This document shows, in pieces, positions 15,980 to 32,630 of a stretch of DNA of 35,749 nucleotides. Under the pieces are notes generated by a model that worked only from the letters and a program-made list of their open reading frames with translations, ran no database searches and was not told where the DNA came from. This DNA comes from Methylococcales bacterium (GTDB lineage Bacteria > Pseudomonadota > Gammaproteobacteria > Methylococcales > Methylomonadaceae): NCBI GenBank assembly GCA_026398935.1, contig JAPLRW010000227.1, forward strand, positions 1 through 35,749, given 5' to 3'. Both the position numbers and the translations under genes were made by a program. Numbering within the stretch: position 1 is the stretch's first letter; each line of letters starts with the position of its first letter.

Positions 15980-17192
15980 GAGCCTTACCAAAAATTAGTA
16001 CATTTCTTATGTCAGCGATATTAACTTTTTGCTCTAATAGCTCCTGATACCAAGCCCCATCAGCGGTATCGCCGTATAACACCGCCCCGATTAATCGGTT
16101 AGCACTAATGACTAATTTTTTATAAATGCCTAATGCGGTATCTGTAAAATGCAGGATTTCAGCATTGGCATCGCCGTGAAAGTCACCGACGGAAAATAGA
16201 TGAATACCGGTGACTTTGAGCTTTGTCGCTGTTGGCAAGGTGACATATTCAGCGACACCGTGCTCGCTTAAATGATTCGCACACACTTTCGCTTGTTCAA
16301 ACAACGGCGCAACCAATCCGAAAGTTTGCCCGCGGTGTTGAATACATTCACCGACGGCATAAATAATTGGATCGTAAGTTTGCAGTGTATCGTTGACCAC
16401 GATGCCGCGTTCACAATACAAACCTGCGGCTTGCGCTAAGGCCATATTAGGTTGTACGCCAATGGCCGCAATAAACAGATCACACGCGAGTTCACTGCCA
16501 TCGGCAAAAGTAACCGCGCGGATATGCGCGTCAGCATCCCCTAATAATGCATTAAGCTTGGCGGCCATTTTGAATTTTATGCCTCTTTGCTCTAATTCTG
16601 CTTGTAACAGTGCGGCGGCATGCTGGTCGAGCTGGCGATTCAGTAATACGTTGTGGTTATGAATGACAGTCACTTGCATGCCCCGTAGTGCTAATCCATT
16701 CGCGGCTTCCAGACCCAATAAGCCACCCCCTAATATGACTGCTTTTTGGCTGTGTGCTGCGTATTCCAGCATTTTGTTAACATCGACAATGTCACGAAAA
16801 CTGATCACGCCCGCCAAATCGTTACCGGGGATCGCTGGTATAATGGCTTTGGAGCCCGTTGCAATGAGTAAGCGATCATAGGTTGCCACCGTGCCGTCCA
16901 GAGCGATGACGGTGCGGTTTTTTCGGTCAATGCGCATCACAGTTTTTTCTTCTCCGGCAAATAGACGTATGCCATTATCTACATACCACTGCCGGTCATT
17001 AATCACGATGTCTTCCAAGGTCTTATCACCGCACAACACGGCCGATAACATAATGCGATTGTAATTACCGTGTGGCTCTGCACCAAAGACGGTAATTGCA
17101 TATTGATCAGGCGCACTTAACAGCTGCTCTTCAATCGTCCGCATACCGGCCATACCATTACCAATGACGACTAAACGTGGTTTCATGTGCAA
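15972..17192 (-). CDS. nasC: FAD-dependent NAD(P)H reductase of assimilatory nitrate reductase
   Basis: This protein of about 406 residues belongs to the pyridine-nucleotide-disulfide oxidoreductase class. It has an N-terminal dinucleotide fold (VVIGNGMAGMRT), a central one (AVILGGGLLGLEAANGLALRG near 155) and an FAD contact (IYAVGECIQHRG near 275). It resembles the N-terminal half of NirB but lacks the BFD and siroheme parts, so it most likely feeds NAD(P)H electrons to NasA. Two starts compete. The TTG at 17192 has AGGAT about six bases upstream, whereas the ATG at 17186 lies 13 bases from it, so TTG is favoured. The 3' end overlaps nasA. Confidence 0.82.
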   Translation of the reverse strand: MHMKPRLVVIGNGMAGMRTIEEQLLSAPDQYAITVFGAEPHGNYNRIMLSAVLCGDKTLEDIVINDRQWYVDNGIRLFAGEEKTVMRIDRKNRTVIALDGTVATYDRLLIATGSKAIIPAIPGNDLAGVISFRDIVDVNKMLEYAAHSQKAVILGGGLLGLEAANGLALRGMQVTVIHNHNVLLNRQLDQHAAALLQAELEQRGIKFKMAAKLNALLGDADAHIRAVTFADGSELACDLFIAAIGVQPNMALAQAAGLYCERGIVVNDTLQTYDPIIYAVGECIQHRGQTFGLVAPLFEQAKVCANHLSEHGVAEYVTLPTATKLKVTGIHLFSVGDFHGDANAEILHFTDTALGIYKKLVISANRLIGAVLYGDTADGAWYQELLEQKVNIADIRNVLIFGKAHV

Positions 17193-17267
17193 CGGATTAT
17201 CCTAAATAGAATGTGTACGGGAGGCATCGTCTACCTGTTGAATAAGACGCATTGTGCGTAGCGGTGG

Positions 17268-18188
17268 CTACACATGGGGAATAGTCATACGTCCTTCTGC
17301 CACCATAACCGCTTCACCGCCGATTCTGAAGGTCAAGTCGGCTTCACGTTTATGATCCATCTCCAGATTAATCAGGCTGCGGCGATTTTTGGTATCACCA
17401 CGATCAACAGAAAAAGTATACGTGCCTTTTTGCAGATGCTCAAAGGAACATAAATACGCCGCAAAGGCAGGCATCGCAGTTCCTACGGGTGGATCGTCAT
17501 GTAGACCGATATTAGGGCCTAGTAAGCGGGCGTTAAAATCGGCGTCATGAAAAGGCGTTTTGGCAGAAAACAAGAGTATTTCTTGTGCGGCGGTTTGTGG
17601 GGCGATGGATTGACTCCATGCCTGAAAATTAAAACGCGCCGATCTAACCGTTTCGTACGTGTAAACCGGTACAATCAGATAAGGAAAGCCACAAGACACT
17701 AAGCGCGTACTGTATTTTTTAGTATCAATCTGTGCTTCAGGAATGGATAAAAAGCTGGCTAACTCACCATTGGGCGGCGCAAATCGATCCACAATGGGCG
17801 ATACTTTACCGGTAAATTGAATAAACCCCGGCTTACCCTCATCGTTGCTAATCGTGGCATTGATCAAGCCGCTGTTTTGTTCGAATACTATGGGGGTAAA
17901 TTTCTCATTCAACACAATATCGCCACAACTGGCTAACACATAAGCCGTGGCGATGATGGGGTGACCTGCGAACATAATTTCAGCTTTAGGTGAAAAAATA
18001 CGCATACGCCTATTCGTCAAGCTGTCTTTTTTGTGAAAGACAAATACGGTTTCGGTTAAATTCAGTTCACGGGCAACCAATTGCATTTGTTGGACATTTA
18101 ACCCCTCGGCATGCGGAAAAACCGCAATCTGCGCACCGTTAAAAATCTGTTTGGTAAATACATCAACAATAAAATACTGATAACTCAT
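17268..18188 (-). CDS. PhzF-family isomerase-like protein
   Basis: This 306-residue protein has the PhzF/YddE double-barrel pattern. It starts with YFIVDVFTKQIFNGAQIAVF, has the likely catalytic glutamate near residue 46 (LNLTETVF), and has AGHPIIATAY near 75 and PPVGTAMPAFAAYL near 240. Family members are isomerases or epimerases of varied substrates, so the reaction here is unknown. Its ATG overlaps the nirD stop (ATGA at 18185-18188), so it is translated with nitrite reductase. That is an unusual position which hints at a role in nitrogen metabolism or repair of a by-product. The gap to the next gene (nasC) is 75 bases. Confidence 0.85.
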   Translation of the reverse strand: MSYQYFIVDVFTKQIFNGAQIAVFPHAEGLNVQQMQLVARELNLTETVFVFHKKDSLTNRRMRIFSPKAEIMFAGHPIIATAYVLASCGDIVLNEKFTPIVFEQNSGLINATISNDEGKPGFIQFTGKVSPIVDRFAPPNGELASFLSIPEAQIDTKKYSTRLVSCGFPYLIVPVYTYETVRSARFNFQAWSQSIAPQTAAQEILLFSAKTPFHDADFNARLLGPNIGLHDDPPVGTAMPAFAAYLCSFEHLQKGTYTFSVDRGDTKNRRSLINLEMDHKREADLTFRIGGEAVMVAEGRMTIPHV

Positions 18189-18526
18189 GATACTAACTCC
18201 ACCAAACTAACTTGCACACTGCCGTTGTCTATGCGAATAGGATAGACGCGTACGCTAACGGTCTCATCTTCAAGGCAAACGCCGCTTTGCAGATTAAAAT
18301 GTTGTTTGTATAACGGCGATGCTACAACAGGTTGACCGTTAATATCGCCGCACAGCCCACGGGATAAGACATTAGCCTTACCAAACGGATCGTAATTATT
18401 AATGGCATAAATAGCGCCTTCTTTTGGCATATAAAAAATGGCTACTTGCTGATCAGCAATCAGCACACATATCCCTGAGTTTGGTTGTAAATCATCGACG
18501 CTACATACCTTTTGCCACTGAGTCAT
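18185..18526 (-). CDS. nirD: Nitrite reductase small subunit
   Basis: This 113-residue protein has the NirD Rieske-like fold. The family-typical stretch NYDPFGKANVLSRGLCGD is followed by VASPLYKQHFNLQSGVCLED. The Cys-His pairs of true Rieske proteins are absent, as is normal for NirD, so it carries no cluster. It is thought to assist NirB in the NADH-dependent reduction of nitrite to ammonium. The start overlaps the nirB stop by one base (TAATG), and the stop overlaps the PhzF-like gene. Confidence 0.93.
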   Translation of the reverse strand: MTQWQKVCSVDDLQPNSGICVLIADQQVAIFYMPKEGAIYAINNYDPFGKANVLSRGLCGDINGQPVVASPLYKQHFNLQSGVCLEDETVSVRVYPIRIDNGSVQVSLVELVS

Positions 18527-21063
18527 TAGACCATCTCCACCAATTTAAAATGTTTACGCTCTTCCTCATCAGCCGGACGCAGTTGGCCGCGCTCTTCGAC
18601 AAAAACCACTTGATCATCCGGTTGGTCACTGTTAATAAAGTGCCGAAAACGTTTGAGTTTGGCTTCATCAGCAATAGTGGTTTTCCATTCACATTGATAG
18701 GTATCAATGACGTTCTGCATTTGTTGATCCAGTTGTTCACACAGCCCCAGTTTGTCATTAATCACCACCGATTTCAGGTAATCCAAGCCACCTTCCATAT
18801 TTTCCATCCAGACGGATGTCCGTTGCAGACGATCTGCGGTACGCACATAAAACGACAGAAAGCGGTCAATGGTTTTAATCAGGGTTTCCTTATCCAGACC
18901 GGTAGCAAATAAATCTGCATGACGGGGTTTCATACCACCATTGCCGCAGACATACAAATTCCAGCCGGATTCGGTGGCAATGATGCCGACATCTTTACTC
19001 TGTGCTTCGGCACATTCGCGGGTACACCCTGACACGGCGAATTTGATTTTATGCGGTGAGCGTAAGCCTTTATAACGGTTCTCCAGTTCTATTGCCAAAC
19101 CAACGCTGTCATCAACGCCGTAACGACACCAAGTGCTGCCGACGCAGGATTTGACGGTGCGTAAAGATTTGCCATAGGCGTGACCGGATTCAAAGCCGGC
19201 ATCAATCAGTTCTTTCCAGATTAACGGTAATTGGTCAACCCGTGCGCCAAATAAATCCACGCGCTGGCCGCCGGTAATTTTGGTATACAGTTTATATTTC
19301 TTACCGACCTGACCAATAGCTATCAGCATATCTGGGCTTATTTCGCCGCCAGCAATGCGCGGTACGACGGAATAGGTACCGTCTTTTTGCATGTTCGCCA
19401 AAAAGGTATCATTGGTGTCTTGCAAGCCAAGGTGTTCATTGGACAGAATGTACGCATTCCATTGCGATGCCAGAATAGAACCAACCGCTGGTTTGCAAAT
19501 TTCGCAACCCCGGCCTTTACCGTGTTTTTCCAGTAATTCGTCAAAGGTTTTGATGTGTTCAACCATGATCAGGTTGTATAGATCTTGTCGCGTATAGGCA
19601 AAGTGTTCACATATATCCGTATTGACCACAAAGCCTTGTTTTGACAGCTCTGAGTTCATCACCGATTTAAGCAAGGCCGCGCAGCCACCACAACCCGTTG
19701 CGGCTTTGGTTTCTGCTTTTAATCCACCAAAAGTGGTGCAACCTGCTTCAATCGCCTGACAGATAGCGCCCTTGGTAACATCGTAACAAGAACAAATTTG
19801 TGCCGCCATAGGCAGAGCATCTGCTCCTAAGCCTACCGATTCATCTGACCGTGCAGGCAAAATCAGTGCGTCCGGGTTTTCCGGTAATTCAATACTGTTT
19901 AAATAGTATTGTAATAACGTACCATAGCCGGAGGCATCCCCGACTAAGACCGCCCCTAATAAGTATTTTTTATCCTGACTGACGACTAAGCGTTTATACA
20001 CTTCGCTGGCACCATTTTGGTAGGTATACACCATGGCTCCCGGCGTTTTAGCGTGAGCATCACCAATACTGGCGACATCAACCCCCATTAATTTCAACTT
20101 GGTACTCATGTCAGCACCCGTAAAGCTTGCGACATTTCCCGCTAGATCAGCAATCACCGTACGTGCCATGGCGTAGCCCGGTGCGACCAGCCCGAAAATC
20201 ATCCCATTCCACAAAGCGCATTCACCGATAGCATAAATATCCGGATCGGAGGTTTTACAGCTATTATCAATCACAATACCGCCACGTGGCCCAACCGCTA
20301 AATCGCAACCTCTGGCAATATCATCGCGCGGACGAATGCCTGCAGAAAACAAGACAACATCGGTTTCTAATTCCTCACCATCCGCGAAACACATTTTGTG
20401 TACGCACTGCTCGCCATCGGTAATGATACTGGTATTTTTACCGGTATGAACAATAACGCCTAAGTCTTCAATTTTGCGGCGTAACATCGCGCCACCCGCT
20501 TCATCCAATTGCACCGCCATTAAGCGCGGAGCAAATTCCACCACATGCGTTTCTAAGCCTAAGTCCACCAGTGCTTTCGCCGCTTCCAAGCCTAACAAGC
20601 CACCGCCAACTACCACGCCGACTTTACTGGTTTTTGCCGCTGCCGCCATGGCTTCTAAGTCTTCAATAGTACGGTAAACCAAGCAGTTACGGCGATCATG
20701 TCCCGGTACTGGCGGTACAAAAGGGTATGATCCGGTGGCCAGTATTAGCTTATCGTATTGAACATGGATACCTTTAGCTGAGGTAACGGTTTTATTTTCT
20801 CGGTCGATATGCGCGGCCTTATCATTTAAGTGTAAGGTAATCGCATGTTGCTCAAAAAAATCGGCGCTAACCATAGACAATTCTTCAGCGGTTTTGCCAG
20901 AGAAAAAAGCCGATAAATGTACGCGATCATAAGCGGGTCTGGGTTCTTCGCAAAAAGTGATTATTTCAAACGCGTCTCTAATTGACTGATTAACCAAGCC
21001 CGCTAAAAAGTACTGACCGACCATGCCGTTGCCAATGACGACCAATTTTTGTTTGTTACTCAT
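18526..21063 (-). CDS. nirB: Nitrite reductase [NAD(P)H] large subunit
   Basis: This 845-residue cytoplasmic siroheme enzyme reduces nitrite to ammonium. Residues about 1-400 hold two dinucleotide folds (VVIGNGMVGQYFL at the start, VVVGGGLLGLEAAKALVDLG near 150). A BFD-like [2Fe-2S] domain (ICSCYDVTKG near 420, TGCGGC near 457) and a second cysteine pair (GCEICKP near 510) follow. The siroheme/4Fe-4S motif is split as CVGSTWC near 637 and CTRECAEA near 678. The ATG at 21063 has a weak site (CGAGAT). A sigma-54-type promoter stands about 40 bases upstream. It heads the nirB-nirD-phzF-nasC-nasA unit. Confidence 0.95.
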   Translation of the reverse strand: MSNKQKLVVIGNGMVGQYFLAGLVNQSIRDAFEIITFCEEPRPAYDRVHLSAFFSGKTAEELSMVSADFFEQHAITLHLNDKAAHIDRENKTVTSAKGIHVQYDKLILATGSYPFVPPVPGHDRRNCLVYRTIEDLEAMAAAAKTSKVGVVVGGGLLGLEAAKALVDLGLETHVVEFAPRLMAVQLDEAGGAMLRRKIEDLGVIVHTGKNTSIITDGEQCVHKMCFADGEELETDVVLFSAGIRPRDDIARGCDLAVGPRGGIVIDNSCKTSDPDIYAIGECALWNGMIFGLVAPGYAMARTVIADLAGNVASFTGADMSTKLKLMGVDVASIGDAHAKTPGAMVYTYQNGASEVYKRLVVSQDKKYLLGAVLVGDASGYGTLLQYYLNSIELPENPDALILPARSDESVGLGADALPMAAQICSCYDVTKGAICQAIEAGCTTFGGLKAETKAATGCGGCAALLKSVMNSELSKQGFVVNTDICEHFAYTRQDLYNLIMVEHIKTFDELLEKHGKGRGCEICKPAVGSILASQWNAYILSNEHLGLQDTNDTFLANMQKDGTYSVVPRIAGGEISPDMLIAIGQVGKKYKLYTKITGGQRVDLFGARVDQLPLIWKELIDAGFESGHAYGKSLRTVKSCVGSTWCRYGVDDSVGLAIELENRYKGLRSPHKIKFAVSGCTRECAEAQSKDVGIIATESGWNLYVCGNGGMKPRHADLFATGLDKETLIKTIDRFLSFYVRTADRLQRTSVWMENMEGGLDYLKSVVINDKLGLCEQLDQQMQNVIDTYQCEWKTTIADEAKLKRFRHFINSDQPDDQVVFVEERGQLRPADEEERKHFKLVEMV

Positions 21064-21102
21064 GTGTAATCTCGATGACGTTAAGGCTGCTTAATTAAAT
21101 AT

Positions 21103-21118
21103 AGCAAGCACCGTGCCA
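21103..21118 (-). promoter_or_regulatory. Sigma-54 promoter of nirB
   Basis: The minus strand reads TGGCACGGTGCTTGCT, a full match to the sigma-54 consensus TGGCAC-N5-TTGCW with GG and GC ten bases apart. Transcription would begin near 21092 with a leader of about 29 bases. This predicts dependence on an enhancer-binding protein such as NtrC. Confidence 0.85.
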
Positions 21119-21174
21119 CTTCATTAAAGCGTACTCTCTAATGCTTTTATCTAAAAAACCAATGTGCTTAAACT

Positions 21175-21209
21175 AAAAAACCGCATCAAAATAGGGCAAC
21201 ACTAGCGGT
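21175..21209 (-). terminator. Possible terminator of the phosphatase/kinase gene
   Basis: Read leftward, ACCGC (21209-21205) can pair with GCGGT (21184-21180), followed directly by a run of T's (21179-21175). The stem is only five base pairs with a 20-base loop, so strength is uncertain. It lies between the kinase stop and the nirB promoter. Confidence 0.35.
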
Positions 21210-21222
21210 GAAAAAAGTTTAA

Positions 21223-21239
21223 CGCACTAACTTAGCGCT
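21223..21239. promoter_or_regulatory. NtrC-like site upstream of nirB (weak)
   Basis: CGCACTAACTTAGCGCT is a dyad matching the NtrC site TGCACYNNNNNRGTGCA at most, not all, positions. It lies about 105 bases upstream of the sigma-54 promoter, a fitting distance for an enhancer. The same dyad, read leftward and followed by TTTTTT a few bases on, could instead be a terminator for the kinase gene. Confidence 0.25.
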
Positions 21240-21260
21240 ATGTTGCATGGCAATAAAACT

Positions 21261-23003
21261 TCACGCCAAACAATACGCCAAGATCACGTTACTAATGAAC
21301 AAAAGCGCCGATAAACACTTCCAGAACAGCAGAGGATTGCGCTCTATCAGCGGTATGGTTGCTTGGGTATTTAAAAATTGAGGATTTGGAACAGATAAAT
21401 CATGTAAAAACTCGGACAATTCATCATAGCGTAGCGCTGGATTAACCGCTGTGGCTTTTTTTAATGCGCCATCAATCCAGAGTGGCACCATGACATTGCA
21501 ATGAAAACTCGGCACATACTGCAGTTTAGCCAGATTAGCCGCGTCCGGTTTTTCGGGAATGTCTTGCCCAAAAGGCAGTGCGCCATTTAGCAACTCATAC
21601 AAGATCACTGCCAGTGAAAATTGATCAGACTTTACGCTGCCACGTTGACCTAAATGGTATTCCGGTGCGCTGTAATTTAACGTACCAAGTACATTTTCTT
21701 GGTTACTGTCACTGAGTGGCGTAATCTCGGTAATACCGGCAATTTTCACCGAGCCGAAATCGATGATTTTAAGCACGCCTTGTGCATCGAACATGATATT
21801 TTCAGGTTTCAAATCTTGATGCAGCATCTCCATACGATGAAAGGCACGTAAGCCTTTGGCAATCTGTTGCACCATTTTTCGGCTAACGTCGATGTCAGCT
21901 TTGGGGTGTTGATCCATCCATTCTCTAAGGGTTTGACCCGCCAAAAATTCAGTTACATAATAAATGCAGCTTTTTTCCCGGTCGGTACTGAGTACCTTTA
22001 GAACATTGTCATGATTAATGCGCTTACCTGCCCACTCTTCATGCAAAAAATGTTCAATGTAATAGGTATCATCATCAAACAGGATCGACGGTGCTTTGAT
22101 AATAACGGTTTGAGCAGTTTTAGTATCGTAAGCCTTATAGACTTGCGTGCGTTTACTAGCGTGTAATTCCGCTGCTATACGGTAACCATCCAGCATCATG
22201 CCCGGCTCTAACGGCGGCGGGAAGGGCAGGTTGGCGTGACGGCGCAGAATTTCATCTTCTTTCGCCTCAGGCAATGCATCCACCTGAATAATCTGACAGG
22301 TGAGGTTATCATCACTGTGCAGGCTTATCGCCAGTTGCACGATTTTCTCGGCGGTTTCTGCTAAATCAGTGTTATCGAGCAACAGATTTTTAAGCGATTT
22401 TTCGTCTACAAAATCATGGACGCCATCGGTAGTCATTAAAAACACATCCCCTCTGGCCAATGGCAATGCATGGTAATCAACTTCCAGTCGTGGCTCTATC
22501 CCCATGGCGCGGTTGAGGTAGTTTTTTTCTTCTGAAATCCAGACGCGATGATCGCGGGTGATTTGTTCAACATTACCTTTGCGTAGGCGGTAAATTCGTG
22601 AGTCACCAATATGAAAAATGTGTGCGGTGGCTGATTTTAAAACGATGATACTTAAGGTACTAACCATGCCCTTGCTTGAGCCATAACGGATGTGTCCTTG
22701 GCTATACAACCAAGAGTTAGTGGCAGAAAGTATCTTTTGCCCCGCTTGTTTGACTGACCACGAGTCGGGTGTACTGTAGTAATCAGTTAGAAAACTCACC
22801 ACACAGCACTGACTGGCTTGCTGCCCCGCATCACTGCCGCTCATGCCATCGGCAATAGCGGCAGTGATGCCTTTATGAATCAGCGCTGTGCCATCAGGAA
22901 TAATTGCCCCAACAAAGTCTTCATTATCGGGTTTAATGCCTTTGTTGCTGGCGTGATGAATAATGACGTTAAGTGCTTGATTAGACAAGTTGATGTCCCG
23001 CAT
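21261..23003 (-). CDS. PP2C phosphatase - Ser/Thr protein kinase fusion with C-terminal membrane anchor
   Basis: This 580-residue protein has an N-terminal PP2C-type phosphatase with its metal-binding aspartates visible: Asp52 in ADGMSGS, HIGDSR near 131, Asp193 in TTDGVHD, and DDN at 231-233. A protein kinase domain follows (about 270-530), with Lys303 (VIIKAPS), HQDLKPEN at 395-402, DFG at 415-417 and SAPEYH near 440. The ATP-binding loop (ELHASKRTQVYKA) lacks the usual glycines. A single hydrophobic segment closes the protein near 555-578. Similar genes sit beside nitrate transporter and nitrite reductase genes in Pseudomonas, so a role in controlling nitrate assimilation is likely. The targets are unknown. 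It overlaps the cupin gene by 23 bases. Confidence 0.88.
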   Translation of the reverse strand: MRDINLSNQALNVIIHHASNKGIKPDNEDFVGAIIPDGTALIHKGITAAIADGMSGSDAGQQASQCCVVSFLTDYYSTPDSWSVKQAGQKILSATNSWLYSQGHIRYGSSKGMVSTLSIIVLKSATAHIFHIGDSRIYRLRKGNVEQITRDHRVWISEEKNYLNRAMGIEPRLEVDYHALPLARGDVFLMTTDGVHDFVDEKSLKNLLLDNTDLAETAEKIVQLAISLHSDDNLTCQIIQVDALPEAKEDEILRRHANLPFPPPLEPGMMLDGYRIAAELHASKRTQVYKAYDTKTAQTVIIKAPSILFDDDTYYIEHFLHEEWAGKRINHDNVLKVLSTDREKSCIYYVTEFLAGQTLREWMDQHPKADIDVSRKMVQQIAKGLRAFHRMEMLHQDLKPENIMFDAQGVLKIIDFGSVKIAGITEITPLSDSNQENVLGTLNYSAPEYHLGQRGSVKSDQFSLAVILYELLNGALPFGQDIPEKPDAANLAKLQYVPSFHCNVMVPLWIDGALKKATAVNPALRYDELSEFLHDLSVPNPQFLNTQATIPLIERNPLLFWKCLSALLFISNVILAYCLA

Positions 23004-23334
23004 CAGCAGGTGATACGACTGAAATAAACACCAACGGTTCCGTATCGTTATTCAAAACACCGTGTACTTCACCACTATGTGCTATGACTATATCGCCCGC
23101 TTTAATGGCTTGGCTAGCATCATGGCTATTTAGATAATAATGGCCTTTACCGGCTAAAATAGTCCAGGTATCTTGTCCGTTTGGATGCATGTGCAACGCA
23201 ATTTTCTGCCCTTTCTTAATATGCCAAGCCACCACCGTTGCATCCTTAGACTGGGTTACTATAGAGCGAATTGGCTCCTTGTCATCAGTCGGTTGAAAAA
23301 AATTCCTGCTGTCAAATATTCTCGATATTGTCAT
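22981..23334 (-). CDS. Small cupin-domain protein
   Basis: This 117-residue single-domain cupin shows motif 1 as GQKIALHMHPNGQDTW (two histidines near residue 50) and motif 2 as GDIVIAHSGEVHGVLN near 85. These would bind a metal such as iron, manganese or zinc. The ligand or substrate cannot be told. A strong ribosome site (GAGGAG) lies six bases before the ATG. It sits 70 bases after narK and overlaps the phosphatase/kinase gene, so the three are probably one operon. It may act as a sensor or small enzyme in that group. Confidence 0.85.
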   Translation of the reverse strand: MTISRIFDSRNFFQPTDDKEPIRSIVTQSKDATVVAWHIKKGQKIALHMHPNGQDTWTILAGKGHYYLNSHDASQAIKAGDIVIAHSGEVHGVLNNDTEPLVFISVVSPADAGHQLV

Positions 23335-23404
23335 GTGATGCTCCTCGTAATCGTTCGTTCATTGCTACGCCTAGCGCACTTTTTATTTGCATAGATATTA
23401 TTCA

Positions 23405-24886
23405 TTAATGCAATTCAATCATTTCCACCGAGCCATCTTCCTGAATTTCAGCCATATGTCCTTTAGGTTCGTCAATAAATTGCACCGCCATTAAAATTAC
23501 CAATGCAGCTGCACCCAGCACAATAAAAAACATTTCCGGCGTAACAAATGACAATACCGTTAAAAACAGAACCCCGCCGACATTACCATAGGCACCGACC
23601 ATACCGGCAATTTGCCCCGTCATGCGGCGTTTAATCAAAGGAACAATGGCGTAAACCGCGCCGCAACCCGCCGATACAAAACAGGAACAGGCCATGGTTA
23701 GCAATACCGCTAAAGCAATTGACCATTCGGCGTTAATCTGTGACATGCCAAAATAGCCTAGCGACAACCCTAGCACAAAGGTACTTAACGATAATTTACG
23801 ACCAAACTTATCACTGAGCCAACCCCCCATGGGTCGTGCAATTAAATTGATAAATGCGAAACTGCCACCCAATAATCCCGCCTGCACCATTGTAATGCCT
23901 TGCGATTCGTGGAAAATTTCAAAGAAATACAGCGGTAACATCGATACCACGGCAAGTTCCGAACCAAAGGTAATGAAGTAAGCCAAATCCAGAATAGCCA
24001 CTTGTTTAAATTTATACTGATGGATAGCTGCTATCGGTTGTTGCAAATGTTCTTTATTAACGTGAATGATTTTAGCGACATTGTAAAAATACATCAGCCA
24101 AATACCGACATAAAGACTCAGCGCAACGGGCATGGATAACAGGTTTGCTGAGGCAGCAGAAGACAGCTTCCAGGTTAATAAACTCAATGTGGCATATAAA
24201 GGCAAGGTCATTAAAATGTAAAAAGTCCTATCGCCTTTACTGGTTACTTCCATAGCCCCGGCTTTTTTGGGTTTAAAATAGGTTGAACCTTTGGGGGTAT
24301 CGGATACGTTTAAAAAATAAATGACCGAATAAATCAGCGCAATAACCCCGGTTGAGGCAATGGCATAACGCCAGCCGTTAGCGCCACCAAAAGCCAAGGC
24401 CAATAATGGTAACGTACCTGCCGCAGCGGCGGAGCCAAAATTTCCCCAGCCCCCATAAATACCTTCTGCAATACCGACTTGTTTCGCTGGAAACCATTCA
24501 CCGACCATGCGTATGCCAATAACAAAACCCGCACCAATAAAGCCCGATAAAAAACGTGCCAAGGCTAATTGTTCAAAGCTAGTGGCGAAAGCGAACATAA
24601 AGCACGGCAGACTACCAGCGGCTAACAGTGCAGAATAGGTACGTTTAGGGCCGAATTTATCCACCAGTATGCCAATGATAATGCGGGCAGGAATGGTTAG
24701 CGCAACATTTAAAATAAGAATGGTTTTAATCTGTGACTTATCCAGTCCCAAACTCTGTGCAATCATCATCATTAACGGCGCATGACTAAACCAGATCACA
24801 AAGGTGATAAAAAAAGCCATCCACGTCATGTGGAGTATCTTGGTTTTTCCTGAGAATGAAAACAGATTAAGACGTTGATGTGACAT
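23405..24886 (-). CDS. narK: Nitrate/nitrite transporter, major facilitator (NarK/NrtP) family
   Basis: This inner-membrane protein of about 493 residues has roughly 12 hydrophobic segments. The two nitrate-signature motifs of the NNP family are visible: GGWGNFGSAAAAG near residue 144 and GAYGNVGG near 430. The family's substrate arginine lies in the segment VIGIRMVGEWFP. It imports nitrate (or exchanges it with nitrite). A longer frame opens at 24955, but the ATG at 24886 with AGGA eight bases upstream fits best. A sigma-54-type promoter lies about 35-50 bases ahead. It probably leads a narK-cupin-kinase operon. Confidence 0.92.
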   Translation of the reverse strand: MSHQRLNLFSFSGKTKILHMTWMAFFITFVIWFSHAPLMMMIAQSLGLDKSQIKTILILNVALTIPARIIIGILVDKFGPKRTYSALLAAGSLPCFMFAFATSFEQLALARFLSGFIGAGFVIGIRMVGEWFPAKQVGIAEGIYGGWGNFGSAAAAGTLPLLALAFGGANGWRYAIASTGVIALIYSVIYFLNVSDTPKGSTYFKPKKAGAMEVTSKGDRTFYILMTLPLYATLSLLTWKLSSAASANLLSMPVALSLYVGIWLMYFYNVAKIIHVNKEHLQQPIAAIHQYKFKQVAILDLAYFITFGSELAVVSMLPLYFFEIFHESQGITMVQAGLLGGSFAFINLIARPMGGWLSDKFGRKLSLSTFVLGLSLGYFGMSQINAEWSIALAVLLTMACSCFVSAGCGAVYAIVPLIKRRMTGQIAGMVGAYGNVGGVLFLTVLSFVTPEMFFIVLGAAALVILMAVQFIDEPKGHMAEIQEDGSVEMIELH

Positions 24887-24922
24887 AGATGTATTCCTAA
24901 CAATGAATGATAGAAATAACGA

Positions 24923-24938
24923 CGCACAATGTATGCCA
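24923..24938 (-). promoter_or_regulatory. Sigma-54-type promoter of narK
   Basis: The minus strand reads TGGCATACATTGTGCG, with GG and GC ten bases apart as sigma-54 needs. Two outer positions differ from the consensus. Transcription would start near 24912. Half sites for NtrC at 24949-24954 (GGTGCA) and in the dyad at 25029-25069 lie upstream. Confidence 0.6.
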
Positions 24939-25028
24939 TGTTTTTTTAGGTGCAAAAAAGCTTATTTTTAGCGGATTGCGTATAGATCGCTTTGAAATAG
25001 TGCCTATTTTATTAGGCATGGATCGTAA

Positions 25029-25069
25029 AATGCACCAAAAAAACGCTGAGCAGCTTGTTTTGGTGCATT
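25029..25069 (-). terminator. Long dyad after the porin gene: terminator and/or NtrC half-site pair
   Basis: AATGCACCAAAA (25029-25040) and TTTTGGTGCATT (25058-25069) pair perfectly over 12 bases. Inside the loop GCTG and CAGC can extend the fold. Read leftward it ends the porin transcript and is followed by TTTACG. TGCACC and GGTGCA are also the two halves of an NtrC site, here 25 bases apart instead of 5. The dyad lies 90-145 bases upstream of the narK promoter. Both roles are possible. Confidence 0.6.
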
Positions 25070-25089
25070 AGGGGTGAGTTTAAACGTAC

Positions 25090-26349
25090 TTAAAAGCTAA
25101 TATTGCCTTGTAACCATATTTTTTGGGTATCAGTACCTATCTTATCCGCATCGTAAAACGCATATTTCGCTAATAACGAATAATGTTTACCGAATTTTTT
25201 CAGCACTTGCGCATCATATTCCTTGCCATAATGCACGCTGGATGTATCGTCGTGATAGTCATGATAAACGAACGTTGCAACGGTACTCCCCCCCTCAAAT
25301 TGTCCGACTAGGGTGCCAAAGACGTCGCGAATACCGTTAGCAGGCGTGGTTAAGAATAAATCTGCCCAGCCTTGAAACGCATGGTTGGTACCCAGAGGTG
25401 TATCAAAGGTTTTATTAAGACCTCCGCCACCCAATTGCTCCATTGCACCTTGAACAGTGAAATTATAAGCCGTAACACCCCCCATTACGTTATAACGATC
25501 GGCTTCATAATTGGTTTGGCCGTGTCCATAATCTTGTTGGTTACTGTACTCGGCGGTATATACGACACCAAAATTATCCGTGAGTTTGAGCGAATCCCCC
25601 GGTTTCTGGTAATTAGACATCCGAAAACCATAGGTTTGACTGGATTTTTCATAGTTTTCTTTTTCGGTGTAATCCAGCCAATAACCATAGGCTACCGCAT
25701 TACCGTAATCACCTACTTTGTAATTCAGGTTTAAAATGGGCGCATTGATGTTTTCAGTGGTGGCGGTAAAGGTGTTAACGTTACCGATATAACCAGCATT
25801 AACCGTTAAACCAAACAACTGTTGGTTTTTATGGGTTAACACCACTGCGTCATAGGTTTGCTCCATTTGCCGCCAACCCACGTTACCAATAAAACGGTCA
25901 TCATCCCATTTAATACGTTGCCGTCCGCCCTTAATTTCCGTGTCAGCAATCCCGGTATAATTAACCCATAATTGATTAAGCTCACTGTGATCAGGGTCGG
26001 CAACCGTCGAATAACCGGTATTGCCGTTACGCGTACTGTTGTAATCCTCCTGCATAGCCAGATTGCCTTCATACTCAGCATAGCCTTGTAAACCGTAAAA
26101 GACCGGAGAGAGTAAGCCTAACCGTAAACGGGCCGTATTCGCATTCGCGGTTTGTGGCTTGCCAATATCCTGATCGACGTTTTCCCAACGGTAATTAAGG
26201 TCTAATTTAACGGCGCCGTTTTTGCCATAATGATAAAAATTTAGCGCGTCTTCAACTTCTTGCGTTACACCCACCGCGAAAACGGGGCTACTGACGGCTG
26301 ACAGGCCAAGCACGGCGGTAATAATGAGGTGTTTATATTCTGATGGCAT
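25090..26349 (-). CDS. Outer-membrane porin (alginate-export-like), probable nitrate porin
   Basis: This 419-residue protein has an N-terminal signal peptide, with a hydrophobic stretch to about residue 25 and likely cleavage after SSPVFA. The rest is built of short alternating strands rich in aromatic residues and glycine. It ends in phenylalanine (GNISF), as outer-membrane barrels do. Segments such as LNYRWENVDQD and GGRQRIKWDDDRFIGNVGWRQ recall the alginate-export porin family. Its place between nrtCD and narK suggests that it lets nitrate or a related anion into the periplasm; this is inference from context. A gap of about 157 bases separates it from nrtCD, so it may be transcribed with nrt or alone. 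Confidence 0.8.
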   Translation of the reverse strand: MPSEYKHLIITAVLGLSAVSSPVFAVGVTQEVEDALNFYHYGKNGAVKLDLNYRWENVDQDIGKPQTANANTARLRLGLLSPVFYGLQGYAEYEGNLAMQEDYNSTRNGNTGYSTVADPDHSELNQLWVNYTGIADTEIKGGRQRIKWDDDRFIGNVGWRQMEQTYDAVVLTHKNQQLFGLTVNAGYIGNVNTFTATTENINAPILNLNYKVGDYGNAVAYGYWLDYTEKENYEKSSQTYGFRMSNYQKPGDSLKLTDNFGVVYTAEYSNQQDYGHGQTNYEADRYNVMGGVTAYNFTVQGAMEQLGGGGLNKTFDTPLGTNHAFQGWADLFLTTPANGIRDVFGTLVGQFEGGSTVATFVYHDYHDDTSSVHYGKEYDAQVLKKFGKHYSLLAKYAFYDADKIGTDTQKIWLQGNISF

Positions 26350-26405
26350 ATGAATTCTCTGCTAAAAAATTGAAATGAAGGTGCTGCACGCGTGTGAAGT
26401 GCGAG

Positions 26406-26444
26406 GCATTGACCACCCAATGCGGATGGCCGTGCTGGTACAGC
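26406..26444. other. Paired small hairpins between nrtCD and the porin gene
   Basis: GCATTG-ACCACC-CAATGC (26406-26423) is a perfect 6-bp stem with a 6-base loop. A second small dyad, GCTG-GTA-CAGC, lies at about 26434-26444. They could stabilise or end part of the nrt message before the porin. The first loop lacks the leading A of ANTAR-type loops, so I do not call it a second antitermination leader. Confidence 0.35.
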
Positions 26445-26506
26445 TTTTATAATTAACATTGAGCGTAGCATGATTATTTAAATATCACCTATACTTAATG
26501 TTGTAA

Positions 26507-28255
26507 TTAATGCGTATGATCACACTCATGTAGGAAGTTTAGTATACTTTCCCTATATTGATAGTAATCTGGGTGCGCCAGTAGTGCTTTACGGCTGCGT
26601 GGTCTGGGTAAATCAATGTGTTCAATTTTACCGATTTTAGCATGTGGCCCATTAGTCATCATCACCACACGGTCAGCTAACAAAATAGCTTCATCGACAT
26701 CATGCGTGACAATAATCGCGGTCACCTGTGTGCGATCCCACACTTCCATTAATACTTCCTGCAATTCCCAACGGGTTAAGGAATCCAGCATACCAAACGG
26801 TTCATCCAATAATAATAATTTGGGTGATAACGCAAATGCCCGCGCAATCCCGACCCGTTGCCGCATACCATTGGACATATCACCCGCTTTTTTACGCAAG
26901 GAATCACCCAAACCGACACGGGTTAGATAATATTCAACAATGTCATCGCGTTCTGATTTTGAAGCGTGCGGATACACTTTATCCACGCCTAAGGTTACGT
27001 TTTCAAACGCCGTCAACCAAGGAAATAAACTGGGTGCTTGAAATACCACACCGCGATCAGGGCCGGCGCTGTCTATTTCGCGGTTATCCAAAATGATAAC
27101 ACCTTCTGAAATACTGTTTAAACCAGCGGTCATAGACAACACAGTCGATTTACCACAACCGGAATGCCCGATGATGGAAATAAATTCGCCTTTCTTCATT
27201 TTCAGATCAAAACCATCCACCACCTTTACGGTACTATTGCCATCAGAGGTGGGGTAAACTTTCGATAGCTGTGAAAACTCCAGATAACGCGGCGAAGGTA
27301 CTTCTGTTTTAACTATATTTAATACTGACTTTTCAATTTCCCAAGCATTGCGCGTATTCGGCTGAACTGAGGGTAATACGATAGCACGGCCAATGCTCTG
27401 TTGCGTTTTTGCGCTACCAATGTCCATCAGATAACGGGTTATCTCCGCGCGTAAGCGCTGAAATTCTGTGTTGTGATTTAACGCAGTCCGGTCGCGAGGT
27501 CGCTCAATAGTAATGTTAAACGCAGGGCCGAAGGTGGCATCAGGCCCAGGATTCAGGGGGATAACCCGATCAGCCATATAGATAGCTTCATCCACATCAT
27601 TGGTGATGAGGATAACCGTCTTTTTTTCTTGCGCCCAGATGGATAAAATTTCATCTTGTAAGTTGCCACGCGTCAGTGCATCTAAGGCACTTAAGGGCTC
27701 ATCCAATAATAAAATATCTGGATTTGCAGCCAACGCTCTTGCTACGTTAACGCGTTGCCGCATACCTCCTGACAGCTCGGCGGGTTTTTTATGCATTGCT
27801 GCGCCTAAATTAACCATCCGTACATATTTTTCAGTATGGGCGCGGCGCTCATTGCTAGACCAGTCTTTGAAAATCTCATCAACCGCTAACGCAACATTTT
27901 CATACACGGTCAACCACGGCATTAAGGAATAGTTTTGAAATACCACGCCGCGATCAGGGCCTGGTGCAGTAATGGGTTTACCCTGCTTTAAGACTTCACC
28001 ACTGTCCGCGTGGATTAGTCCGGCGATGGTTGAAATCAGTGTGGTTTTTCCACTACCCGAAAAGCCAACAATGGCGATAAATTCACCTTCACGTACCGAT
28101 AAGTTAATATTTTTCAGGATAGAGGTTTTGCTCTTTCCTTCACCATAGCTTTTACAGACATCCTTTAATTCCAGTAACGGCTGAAACGGATCATTTGAGG
28201 ATGACAGCAGTCCGCTGTTTACAGTATTCACGACTTTAAGGTTGACGGCGCTCAT
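26507..28255 (-). CDS. nrtCD: Nitrate ABC transporter ATPase with two fused nucleotide-binding domains
   Basis: This 582-residue protein holds two complete ABC ATPase domains in tandem. Domain 1 has Walker A GFSGSGKT (64-71), signature LSGGMRQR (161-168), Walker B with Asp185-Glu186, and Asn219 where the switch histidine should be. Domain 2 has GHSGCGKS (363-370), an altered signature MSNGMRQR (460-467), Asp484-Glu485 and an intact His518. A linker of roughly 80 residues joins them. It energises nitrate uptake with NrtA and NrtB. In cyanobacteria NrtC and NrtD are separate, and NrtC ends in an NrtA-like domain that is missing here. TGGAG six bases before the ATG supports the start. It follows nrtB by 14 bases. 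Confidence 0.9.
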   Translation of the reverse strand: MSAVNLKVVNTVNSGLLSSSNDPFQPLLELKDVCKSYGEGKSKTSILKNINLSVREGEFIAIVGFSGSGKTTLISTIAGLIHADSGEVLKQGKPITAPGPDRGVVFQNYSLMPWLTVYENVALAVDEIFKDWSSNERRAHTEKYVRMVNLGAAMHKKPAELSGGMRQRVNVARALAANPDILLLDEPLSALDALTRGNLQDEILSIWAQEKKTVILITNDVDEAIYMADRVIPLNPGPDATFGPAFNITIERPRDRTALNHNTEFQRLRAEITRYLMDIGSAKTQQSIGRAIVLPSVQPNTRNAWEIEKSVLNIVKTEVPSPRYLEFSQLSKVYPTSDGNSTVKVVDGFDLKMKKGEFISIIGHSGCGKSTVLSMTAGLNSISEGVIILDNREIDSAGPDRGVVFQAPSLFPWLTAFENVTLGVDKVYPHASKSERDDIVEYYLTRVGLGDSLRKKAGDMSNGMRQRVGIARAFALSPKLLLLDEPFGMLDSLTRWELQEVLMEVWDRTQVTAIIVTHDVDEAILLADRVVMMTNGPHAKIGKIEHIDLPRPRSRKALLAHPDYYQYRESILNFLHECDHTH

Positions 28256-28269
28256 CTTCGACTCCAGTG

Positions 28270-29286
28270 TTAAAGGGTTTTTCCAAAAGAAAATACGGTT
28301 TGAAAGGATTGCATAATGCGATCCAAAATGAAGCCGATAAGTCCAATGGTAAAAACCGCGACCATAATTCTACCCAATGAGTTTGAGCTGCCATTTTGAA
28401 ACTCATCCCAGACAAATTTACCCAACCCAGGGTTTTGCGCCAACATTTCCGCGGCAATTAACACCATCCAGCCCACACCTAAGGACAAGCGCATACCGGT
28501 AAAAATATACGGTAATGCCGAGGGTAAGATGATTTTCTTAATTTGCGTACTCCAGTTCAGCCGTAACACTTTACCGACATTCACCAAATCTTTATCAATG
28601 GATGACACGCCAACCGCCGTATTAATCAGTGTTGGCCACAGCGAACACAGCGTAACGGTAATGGCGGAGGTTAAAAATGATTTCTCAAACCAGGAATCAT
28701 CGGTCGTTACATAGACGGCACTGACCACCAGAGTAACAATGGGCAGCCACGCAAGCGGTGATACCGGTTTAAACAGTTGAATCAGCGGATTTAGCGCGGT
28801 ATTAAATACCGGATTCATGCCGCATAACAGCCCCAAGGGAATAGCGATGACTGAGGCGATCACGAAACCGGCAAACACGGTATATAGGCTGGTAAAAATT
28901 TTATCCAGATAGGTTGCTTGACCGTTATAAGGGCGTACTTTAATGTCTGCGCTAGGATCCTCTGCGTGTTTCTTTTCATTGCGTTCTGTTTGGCGTTGGT
29001 AATAGTCAACTTCTTTGGCTCGTTCAGCAAAATGCTCATCCAATAAACCGTTCGCTTCGTGCCAAACAGCCACTGGCCCAGGAATAGCACCTAAACTGGT
29101 ATTGACTTTAGAGGCTGAAAAACTCCACAGTCCCAAAAAGAGCATAAATGCAATAATCGGTACGCCCATGATTAAAAATAATTGCCGCGCCTGTTGTGTG
29201 GCGTTTTCCCCGGCGGCTATTTTTACCAATGGCACAAACCAGGTTAAACCAGTAATGTTAAGATATTTAATAATTTGATTGTGCAT
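28270..29286 (-). CDS. nrtB: Nitrate ABC transporter permease
   Basis: This 338-residue inner-membrane protein is of the binding-protein-dependent permease family. It has an N-terminal hydrophobic segment near 30-50 and a charged loop (about 75-125) of the kind long NrtB proteins carry. About five more segments follow, with the ATPase-contact EAA loop visible as EMLAQNPGLGKFVWDEF near 285. It forms the membrane channel for nitrate with NrtA and the fused ATPase. The ATG at 29286 has a purine-rich site (AGGGGTGGG) upstream. It follows nrtA by 81 bases, with no clear terminator between them. Confidence 0.9.
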   Translation of the reverse strand: MHNQIIKYLNITGLTWFVPLVKIAAGENATQQARQLFLIMGVPIIAFMLFLGLWSFSASKVNTSLGAIPGPVAVWHEANGLLDEHFAERAKEVDYYQRQTERNEKKHAEDPSADIKVRPYNGQATYLDKIFTSLYTVFAGFVIASVIAIPLGLLCGMNPVFNTALNPLIQLFKPVSPLAWLPIVTLVVSAVYVTTDDSWFEKSFLTSAITVTLCSLWPTLINTAVGVSSIDKDLVNVGKVLRLNWSTQIKKIILPSALPYIFTGMRLSLGVGWMVLIAAEMLAQNPGLGKFVWDEFQNGSSNSLGRIMVAVFTIGLIGFILDRIMQSFQTVFSFGKTL

Positions 29287-29367: not shown

Positions 29368-30768
29368 CTAACCAACTACCTTGCCGCCTTTTACGACTTG
29401 TTTGTCTTTTAGACCAATTTTAAAGTTGTTTAAATAGGCATTCGGTTTAGTTGCATCAAACGAAATACCATCAATAAAATCTGCGCTGGGGGGTTTAATA
29501 CCGGTTTCGCTATCGCTGGGGAAATCACTGGCTTTAGCTTTTCCTTCGGCAATTAACGCTTTAGCAGCAGCCATATAGATGTCAGGACGGTAAACTTTCT
29601 TAGCGGTTTCAAGATACCAAGCATCTGATTTCGCCTCATTAATTTGTCCCCAGCGACGCATTTGTGTCAAATTCCAAATGGCATCGCTGTAATAGGGGTA
29701 AGAGCCGTTATGACGGAAAAATACATTGAAATCAGGTAACGGGCGTTTATCGCCTTTTTCATATTCAAACGTACCGTTCATGCTATTGGCAATGACCTCA
29801 TAATCCGCGCCGACGTATTGTTTTTGTGACAACATTTCTACGCCTTCATTACGGTTTTTATTGGCTTCAGCATCCAGCCACATCGACGCGCGAATCAACG
29901 CCTTAATGACGGCTTTGTGGGTATTAGGATTCTTATCCGCCCACGCTTTACTGACGCCAAATATTTTTTCCGCACTGTTTTTCATTAGCTCATAGTCACT
30001 GATAACCGGTACGCCGATACCTTTAAATACCGCTTGCTGGTTCCATGGTTCACCGACACAGTAACCGACGATAGTGCCAGAATCCATAGTTGCAGGCATT
30101 TGTGGTGGCGGTGTTACGGATAAAATAGCTTCTGCCCCAATCTGACCGGAAGTATCTTGAGGGGGGGCATAAAAGCCTGGGTGAATACCGCCCGCCGCCA
30201 ACCAATAACGTAATTTCATATTATGCGACCCCACCGGAAAGGTCATCGCCATATTAAATGGCTTGCCTTCTGCTTTATATTTTTCCAGTATCGGTTTTAA
30301 GGTATCCGCTTTAATAGGATGCACTGGTTTGCCATCCTGCATTGGAATCTGTGGTTTCATCTGTTTCCAAACATCATTTGAAACCGTAATGGCATCGCCG
30401 TTTAAGGTCATCGTGAAGGCGCTAACAATATCTGCTTTAGTACCAAAACCAATGACACCCCCTAAAGGCAATGGCGCTAACATATGCGCACCATCTAATT
30501 CGCCACTGACCACCCGATCAAACAACACTTTCCAGTTTGCTTGCGCTTCAATTTGTACTGAAAGACCTTCATCATCAAAATAGCCTTTTTCAAAGGCGAC
30601 GGCGAGCGGAGCCATGTCGGTTAGCTTGATAAAGCCCAGTTTTAAGCTTTCTTTTTCCAGTTTTTCAGCGGCCATTACACTACCGGCAAAACTTAAAGCG
30701 GTAAAAGCTGCCACGGATGCAAGCACTGTAACCCGTCTTTTAATCGTCAAATATTCGATTTTTTTCAT
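29368..30768 (-). CDS. nrtA: Nitrate ABC transporter substrate-binding protein
   Basis: This protein of about 466 residues belongs to the NrtA/CmpA family of periplasmic binding proteins. Family sequence begins with KLGFIKLTDMAPLAVAFEKGYF, then GAHMLAPLPLG near 100 and GYCVGEPWNQQAV near 250. A signal peptide with a basic start (KRRV) and a hydrophobic core ends at SVMAAE. No lipobox cysteine is seen, so it is soluble or tethered otherwise. A longer frame opens at 30816, but the ATG at 30768 gives a proper signal peptide. It is preceded by a leader with antitermination features and a sigma-54 promoter, so control is probably by nitrogen status and by nitrate. Confidence 0.92.
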   Translation of the reverse strand: MKKIEYLTIKRRVTVLASVAAFTALSFAGSVMAAEKLEKESLKLGFIKLTDMAPLAVAFEKGYFDDEGLSVQIEAQANWKVLFDRVVSGELDGAHMLAPLPLGGVIGFGTKADIVSAFTMTLNGDAITVSNDVWKQMKPQIPMQDGKPVHPIKADTLKPILEKYKAEGKPFNMAMTFPVGSHNMKLRYWLAAGGIHPGFYAPPQDTSGQIGAEAILSVTPPPQMPATMDSGTIVGYCVGEPWNQQAVFKGIGVPVISDYELMKNSAEKIFGVSKAWADKNPNTHKAVIKALIRASMWLDAEANKNRNEGVEMLSQKQYVGADYEVIANSMNGTFEYEKGDKRPLPDFNVFFRHNGSYPYYSDAIWNLTQMRRWGQINEAKSDAWYLETAKKVYRPDIYMAAAKALIAEGKAKASDFPSDSETGIKPPSADFIDGISFDATKPNAYLNNFKIGLKDKQVVKGGKVVG

Positions 30769-30799: not shown

Positions 30800-30847
30800 A
30801 AAAAAAAACGTCTCAAAACCGTGATTTATCACGATTTAGTCGACGTC
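30800..30847 (-). terminator. Leader terminator (attenuator) before nrtA
   Basis: Read leftward, GACGTC (30847-30842) pairs with GACGTT (30812-30807). Inside, a stretch ending in CGTGAT pairs with ATCACG plus an A/T-rich extension, giving a long nearly continuous stem. It is followed by nine U's in the RNA (30808-30800). It stands inside the nrtA leader, 30-80 bases before the start codon, so it would stop transcription unless overridden. Confidence 0.75.
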
Positions 30848-30859
30848 TTTGTCGGGTGT

Positions 30860-30898
30860 GCTCAGCGTTGAGCGAATTTTCAACCCCAGCATTGGAGT
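30860..30898 (-). promoter_or_regulatory. ANTAR-type two-hairpin RNA motif in the nrtA leader
   Basis: P1 (30898-30883) reads ACUCC-AAUGCU-GGGGU. P2 (30873-30860) reads GCUC-AACGCU-GAGC. Both have six-base loops with A at position 1 and G at position 4, the hallmark of RNA bound by ANTAR antiterminators such as NasR and NasT. They are 9 bases apart, lie downstream of the sigma-54 start and stand just ahead of the leader terminator. The regulator itself is not in this window. Confidence 0.75.
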
Positions 30899-30913
30899 CT
30901 CTGTAATTATTAA

Positions 30914-30929
30914 TGCATAAGCCGTGCCA
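30914..30929 (-). promoter_or_regulatory. Sigma-54 promoter of nrtA
   Basis: The minus strand reads TGGCACGGCTTATGCA, with GG and GC separated by ten bases and a full TGGCACG upstream half. Only one base of the -12 element differs from consensus. The start near 30902 gives a leader of about 135 bases that holds the two hairpins and the terminator. Confidence 0.8.
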
Positions 30930-30937
30930 ATAATTAT

Positions 30938-30984
30938 AATAAGCCATTGTATTAAATATTTTACATTTAATACAATGGCTTATT
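30938..30984. terminator. Perfect 20-bp hairpin downstream of the PEGA kinase gene
   Basis: AATAAGCCATTGTATTAAAT (30938-30957) pairs perfectly with 30965-30984 around a 7-base loop. Read leftward it is followed by an A/T-rich tail but not a pure T run. It probably ends the upstream kinase transcript and insulates the nrtA promoter that begins 9 bases further on. Confidence 0.6.
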
Positions 30985-31079
30985 TATGTTATGAAAAGGA
31001 AGTCAGGTCTTAATAACGCTAGAAGAACATCAGCGTTGTGGCAGCTATGCCCTAGAAATGTACAGAGATGAATGGTTTT

Positions 31080-31096
31080 TGCACCAAAATAAGCTA
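31080..31096 (-). promoter_or_regulatory. NtrC-like half site upstream of nrtA
   Basis: TGCACCAAAAT (31080-31090) equals the first eleven bases of the E. coli glnA NtrC site as I recall it. The second half (AAGCTA) is poor. It lies about 150 bases upstream of the sigma-54 promoter, a suitable enhancer position. Confidence 0.4.
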
Positions 31097-32404: not shown

Positions 32405-32630
32405 AAAATTAACGGCGGTGTTGTAGTCTTTAAATTTCCCCAAGCAACATAGGTAACCATAACCGCTAGCTTGGTGCTTAAACGCCGATTATTCAGGATG
32501 TTCAATACGCCCTTTTTCAAGCGACCCTAACCTTGGTAAGCATCAAGCGGTAACGGTCAAAATACGGGTCTGCCCACAGTTAAAAAGTAAGCTACTGGTT
32601 AGCGCTTTAGCATGCTCATATTGGCACCCT

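Follow-up and report, generated by a model that had tools for sequence, protein, structure and literature searches.

How is the nitrate gene cluster of a methanotroph switched on: by the start of transcription alone, by read-through of a leader terminator, or by both? The question is raised by the interval preceding nrtA on the minus strand of a stretch of 35,749 nucleotides from a Methylococcales bacterium (contig JAPLRW010000227.1; hereafter the window), where the original prediction, made from the letters only, placed a sigma-54 promoter and an ANTAR leader of two hairpins and proposed a double control, with NtrC for the start and nitrate-responsive antitermination for the read-through. Based on the analysis presented here, we propose that transcription of the cluster starts at an NtrC-activated sigma-54 promoter and that a NasT-like protein would prevent termination at a leader having three hairpins, with a GAF-domain protein probably relaying the signal. 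We give this reading a probability of about 0.8.

The leader and the nitrate cluster

The leader interval is bounded on the minus strand by the end of a protein-kinase gene at 31151 upstream and by the nrtA ATG at 30768 downstream (Table 1). After nrtA the cluster contains nrtB (TIGR01183), nrtCD (TIGR01184), a porin gene, narK (TIGR00886), a PP2C-kinase fusion gene, nirB, a PhzF-like gene, an NAD(P)H reductase gene and nasA, and these genes would presumably be co-transcribed with nrtA. The source genome (3.6 Mb, 99.99% complete assembly) has a single credible copy of the leader, which heads the whole nitrate cluster; no further copy in that genome is credible, the next best match having an E value of 0.6. 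It is also noted that the PP2C-phosphatase/Ser-Thr-kinase fusion lies inside the cluster at 21261-23003 and that a PEGA-domain Ser/Thr kinase is encoded directly upstream of the leader at 31151-32443. Near the nitrate locus of an uncultured gammaproteobacterium there is a group I intron match (L081:7809-8071, minus strand; 81.6 bits, above the cut-off).

Table 1. Coordinates of the leader elements and of the genes that follow them in the window
Feature	Position	Strand	Remark
Possible NtrC half-site TTTTGGTGCAAAAACC	31073..31087	-	about 155 bp upstream of the promoter; weak in the window
Sigma-54 (-24/-12) promoter TGGCACGGCTTATGCA	30914..30929	-	sequence and conservation
H1 hexaloop hairpin gactcc-AATGCT-ggggtt (RNA loop AAUGCU)	30882..30899	-	upstream; extra relative to the published dual motif
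H2 hexaloop hairpin gctc-AACGCT-gagc (RNA loop AACGCU)	30860..30873	-	counterpart of P1 (recruitment hairpin) by spacing
H3 putative antiterminator hairpin cgac-AAAGAC-gtcg (RNA CGAC-AAAGAC-GUCG)	30841..30854	-	counterpart of P2
Intrinsic terminator, stem 30850-30804 then nine T (30808-30800)	30800..30850	-	sequence and folding
nrtA, nitrate ABC transporter binding protein	29368..30768	-	first gene under predicted leader control
Rest of the nitrate cluster	13193..29286	-	same strand as nrtA

All the elements listed in the original prediction (the promoter, the AAUGCU and AACGCU hairpins, the long stem, the nine U's and nrtA) are present on the minus strand. The promoter has one mismatch to TGGCACG-N4-TTGCA, with GG at -24, GC at -12 and a conserved spacing, and the predicted transcription start is at about 30904-30902 on the minus strand. 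Several relatives have NtrC-like sites with a good palindrome between about -115 and -170, while the window has a half-site only; NtrC would probably be the activator of the nrtA promoter. Directly upstream of the sigma-54 site, at 30938-30984, there is a perfect 20-bp inverted repeat with a 7-nt spacer, which has no T-tract and is not apparent at the same position in the leaders of the relatives.

For the RNA 30904-30795 the computed fold has -33.3 kcal/mol and a z of -3.56, and none of 200 shuffles is as stable. Both hairpins named there are real, but the leader has a third hexaloop hairpin, H3, that was missed and whose loop shows the same A in the first and G in the fourth position (A1/G4) as the loops of H1 and H2. 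The two named hairpins do not by themselves make up a complete ANTAR element, since neither of them overlaps the 5' arm of the terminator; it is only H3 (30854-30841) that has bases in common with that arm (30850-30842). Three non-overlapping A1/G4 hexaloop hairpins with stems of at least 4 bp occurred in none of 20,000 dinucleotide shuffles of the leader, and two occurred in 15.

Conservation among Methylococcales leaders

Scanning with NrtA yielded 80 named loci; of these, 29 (L038-L066) are close Methylococcales loci, and the H3 element is present in 27 of the 29. The alignment consists of the window and 26 relatives (27 leaders), with L060, having no hexaloop before H3, left out. Across these 27 leaders the TGGCA...TGC bases of the promoter are invariant and the spacing is kept as well. 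The loops, the conservation of which in relatives had been set as a check on the original prediction, are likewise kept, with A1 and G4 found, respectively, in 23 and 24 of the 27 leaders for H1, in 25 and 27 for H2, and in all 27 for both positions of H3. In the H1 and H2 loops, positions 3, 5 and 6 are variable while positions 1 and 4 are fixed. The upstream A1/G4 pattern is not an artefact of selecting the loop letters, because it is also seen when the anchoring is on H3 alone: of 28 leaders, 26 have some hexaloop hairpin in the 26 nt preceding H3, with G4 in every one of them and A1 in 24. The short element ACAAAGRCGTC is by itself not specific.

The stems are also maintained. In the 27 leaders, 94.9% of the stem cells are paired, as compared with 31-45% in slid controls, and 32 cells show two-sided compensatory changes versus 11.6 expected from shuffles. 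With no structure supplied, RNAalifold recovers H1, H2 and the terminator pairing of AAAGRCGUC with the 3' arm, which is the alternative to H3. Among the three hairpins the covariation is strongest in H1, where four of the five pairs have two-sided changes. This bears on whether the leader could be an ordinary dual-hexaloop ANTAR leader, where H2 and H3 suffice and H1 is decorative or stabilising. The H2-H3 spacing of 5 nt, which is near that in the two-hairpin leaders of another family of the order (f4), is consistent with such an arrangement, as are the H1 loops that are degenerate in 4 of the 27 leaders and the leader of L051, where the H1 hairpin is retained with the loop TTAAAG; however, a mere spacer would need neither the strongest covariation nor A1/G4 in most leaders. 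We regard a dispensable H1 as possible, although as the less probable case, and take the leader in what follows as a three-hairpin one.

The probable regulator

Two proteins in the source genome exceed the Pfam PF03861 cut-off for ANTAR. One (L001) is NasT-like, 191 aa long, with Response_reg and ANTAR domains (65 bits), and the other (L002) is a PdtaR-like regulator encoded beside a PdtaS-like histidine kinase. Thus, the genome does have the ANTAR protein without which the original prediction would fall, and it is NasT-like and encoded outside the window. Concerning the suggestion that nasT/nasS or nasR would lie there, the part on nasT holds, with the gene being elsewhere in the genome on a contig that ends about 105 bp upstream of it; no NasS was detected, and NasR is ruled out because neither ANTAR protein has a NIT domain, both being of the receiver-ANTAR type.

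Across genomes, the leader and the NasT-like protein occur together. With thresholds of E < 1e-20 for NasT and E < 1e-4 for R1, the covariance model describing the three-hairpin leader, among 37 genomes of the same family (f1) a strong leader match is present in 21 of the 22 with NasT and in none of the 15 without it (Fisher 1.7e-9). NasT and the leader therefore agree in 36 of the 37 genomes, the exception being a 77% complete one (G007) that has NasT and no leader match. Two Methylococcaceae (L038 and L042), whose nrtA keeps the sigma-54 site, have lost the H2 and H3 hairpins and the terminator, and their genomes have neither NasT nor the GAF protein described below; among the named nrtA loci, both leaderless ones are without NasT as well. 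This co-occurrence partly reflects shared ancestry. In a wide sampling of the order, about 85 members of the family have a strong leader match, and other families give weaker and often shorter matches, with the two-hairpin leaders of family f4 having been seen directly.

The same observations bear on two other explanations. That the PdtaR-like L002, with its adjacent kinase, rather than the NasT-like protein is the regulator would accord with its being a genuine ANTAR protein over the Pfam cut-off, but it is the NasT-like protein that tracks the leader and adjoins nitrate genes in relatives, and searching the leader-bearing relatives with NasT gives, in most of them, no further ANTAR-like match at E <= 1e-10; we consider a role of L002 here very unlikely. 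That the hairpin and T-tract are a plain, unregulated terminator of the upstream gene is more improbable still, to the point of being hardly tenable: a same-strand gene does end at 31151, but a promoter with invariant bases sits between that gene and the terminator, and the loops, the spacing and the co-occurrence with NasT would be left unexplained.

It is also noted that the nrtA leaders of Alteromonadales (L067, L069, L070, L072, L075, L085, L092, L093, L095, L096, L102, L103, L107 and L112) carry a different element, e.g., GGC-AACGAA-GCCCACC...GGTGGG followed by a T-run, and many of them have an A1/G4 hexaloop at the foot of the terminator. Several Alteromonadales genomes tested (L069, L070, L072 and L085) gave no NasT match, and another ANTAR protein may act in those lacking NasT.

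The possible partner of NasT

NasT is normally partnered by NasS, an NrtA-like receptor (Paracoccus, PMC3795266). The locus studied here resembles the Paracoccus system in having a NasT-like receiver-ANTAR protein and a leader before nitrate assimilation genes, but differs from it in three respects (PMC3795266). Firstly, a search of the 99.99% complete source assembly with NrtA matches nrtA alone, so that of the NasS-NasT pair only NasT is found encoded, and the pair was rejected as the regulator. The same search does detect NasS-like proteins in other genomes, and an NrtA-like gene (35-42% identical) adjoins nasT in other families and in one f1 genome, G016; NasS is undetected in nearly all Methylococcales examined. 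Secondly, nasT is followed by a gene for a tandem-GAF protein of about 307 aa, 51-82% identical over 32 sequences. In most of these genomes the GAF protein (63-82% identical) is encoded next to nasT or close by; its gene is gained and lost together with nasT and is often directly followed by nrtA. Thirdly, the phospho-acceptor of the NasT receiver is Asn, or rarely another residue, in the NasS-less group of Methylococcales, while the Asp is retained in seven of eight NasS-linked NasT proteins.

We hypothesise that the GAF protein is a nitrate sensor feeding NasT. Its AlphaFold model is confident (pLDDT 85) and matches in the PDB the nitrate receptor NreA together with many other GAF proteins of many ligand classes. 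The protein is not a member of the NreA family, its NCBIfam NreA score being 22.5 bits against a cut-off of 175, with the likeness consisting of the common GAF motif only; because the likeness is generic and the score is so far below the cut-off, nitrate sensing is put forward as a hypothesis. Methylomonas and L062 have NasT and the leader without either the GAF protein or NasS, so that the module can evidently do without the former. These exceptions, together with the many ligand classes matched by the fold, are also consistent with the GAF protein not being the sensor. NasT could then be constitutive, or sense via an unlinked protein or NrtA, and the GAF protein could have another task, e.g., reading NO or redox state. 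By contrast, the tight adjacency and co-occurrence of the GAF gene with nasT and nrtA argue for a role in the signalling, as does a lineage outside the order (L238) with nasS, nasT, the GAF gene and nirB in a row, a plausible intermediate. On balance a non-sensing GAF protein is a serious possibility, falling only somewhat short of even odds, and a sensing one is taken in the pathway below.

The number of hairpins and the loss of NasS are not strictly linked, since leaders of the P11 type (see below) and those of the gammaproteobacteria L084, L090, L099 and L110 also have three hexaloops. In the f1 genome with NasS (G016, L036/L218) the middle hairpin has no hexaloop. The correlation between three hairpins and NasS loss is at most partial.

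The proposed switch

In the established model for ANTAR targets, the protein excludes the terminator by binding, with the second hexaloop positioned at the terminator's 5' base (PMC3369931). The crystal structure of EutV showed that the dimer holds one hexaloop at a time, a hand-over from the recruitment hairpin to the antiterminator was proposed in the same work, and the question why ANTAR antitermination requires more than one hexaloop was left by that structure (PMC8934654). As the model describes for a target (PMC3369931), the window has A1/G4 hexaloop hairpins with stems of at least 3 bp, three of them where at least two are required, the last one overlaps the 5' arm of the terminator and cannot coexist with it, and the genome encodes an ANTAR-domain protein. 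In the folding of the growing transcript, H1, H2 and H3 persist until the 3' arm of the terminator is made, whereupon H3 is displaced; the full leader with the terminator has -33.3 kcal/mol versus -28.7 kcal/mol with H3 enforced. As judged from the sequence, H3 is thus the predicted antiterminator of the ANTAR model.

The pathway would then be as follows. When nitrogen is short, NtrC probably activates the sigma-54 promoter, giving a leader of about 135 nt ahead of the nrt/nas cluster. With the regulator inactive, the leader terminator would form and transcription would stop before nrtA. In the presence of nitrate or nitrite, the signal would reach NasT probably via the adjacent GAF-domain protein instead of NasS, and NasT would bind each A1/G4 hexaloop upon its emergence, in the order H1, H2, H3. 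Bound NasT would hold H3 closed, thereby keeping the bases that H3 has in common with the terminator 5' arm from pairing in the terminator, and the cluster would be read. The order H1 to H2 to H3 implies a three-step relay, with H1 being the additional hairpin, which we infer by analogy with the proposed hand-over in EutV. The predicted combination of a sigma-54 start with ANTAR antitermination before nrtA, i.e., the double control put forward in the original prediction, is well supported by the conservation, the covariation and the co-occurrence with NasT.

Relation to known leaders and RNA families

The device would be of a known kind, an ANTAR antiterminator leader under sigma-54, the variant features being the series of three hexaloops and the GAF-linked NasT without NasS. 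Like the dual-hexaloop targets of EutV, NasR and AmiR (PMC3369931, PMC8934654), it has A1/G4 hexaloops with the last one overlapping the terminator 5' arm, an ANTAR protein in the genome and a nitrogen-metabolism operon downstream, the difference being that those have two hexaloops while here there are three in series. Neither a three-hexaloop ANTAR leader, nor a GAF partner of NasT, nor a methanotroph case was found in the literature searched, which covered few subscription papers, so that this negative counts as weak evidence.

At the gathering thresholds of Rfam there is no match in the window, with 27.6 bits to the narK RNA (RF03032, cut-off 43.2) and 21.8 bits to P11 (RF00625, cut-off 70). 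The narK RNA consensus, GGCACAgcucUUGCU followed by GGcagCC-AACGGC-GGcugCC and CGACAAAGACGUCG, reads as two A1/G4 hexaloop hairpins preceded by a sigma-54 promoter. It shares with the window the sigma-54 -24/-12 bases, a hexaloop hairpin, with AACGGC in the narK RNA, and the element CGACAAAGACGUCG, and differs in that the second hairpin is not modelled as paired in Rfam; the low score of the window is probably due to its extra hairpin. A nasS-nasT genome has a leader that passes the RF03032 cut-off (L215, 1596-1666), and the narK RNA appears to be a two-hairpin form of the same ANTAR leader device. P11, a Pseudomonas 'sRNA', shares the sigma-54 promoter, A1/G4 hexaloop hairpins, CAAAGGCGUC and the terminator, and differs in the H1 and H2 sequences; a strong member (L223, 1501-1640; 126 bits) has three hexaloops, the first on a 3-bp stem. 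P11 is probably a leader of the same kind. No statement that narK RNA or P11 is an ANTAR leader was found in the literature searched. Rfam files P11 as an sRNA and narK RNA as a cis-element.

In relatives, the leader also precedes other genes. The genome of Methylovulum miyakonense HT12 has three copies, before nrtA, nirB and narK separately, and Methylobacter-type genomes have extra copies before genes for an EAL c-di-GMP phosphodiesterase and a HAMP/MCP chemoreceptor. The EAL and chemoreceptor copies are located at L208:1168-2746, L208:4911-7522, L209, L210 and L213.

Implications

More tentatively, and with the balance lying against the whole being right, the system may combine a three-step relay, a NasT working without NasS or a phospho-acceptor, and an undescribed tandem-GAF nitrate receptor, with some species also placing a c-di-GMP phosphodiesterase and a chemoreceptor under the same control. 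The conserved series of three loops with fixed spacing makes the hand-over testable by removing the loops singly. From the comparison, a function can also be proposed for the Rfam narK RNA family, and likewise for P11. For methanotrophs, a NasT linked to a GAF protein and lacking NasS directs attention to a candidate new receptor of nitrate or nitrite.
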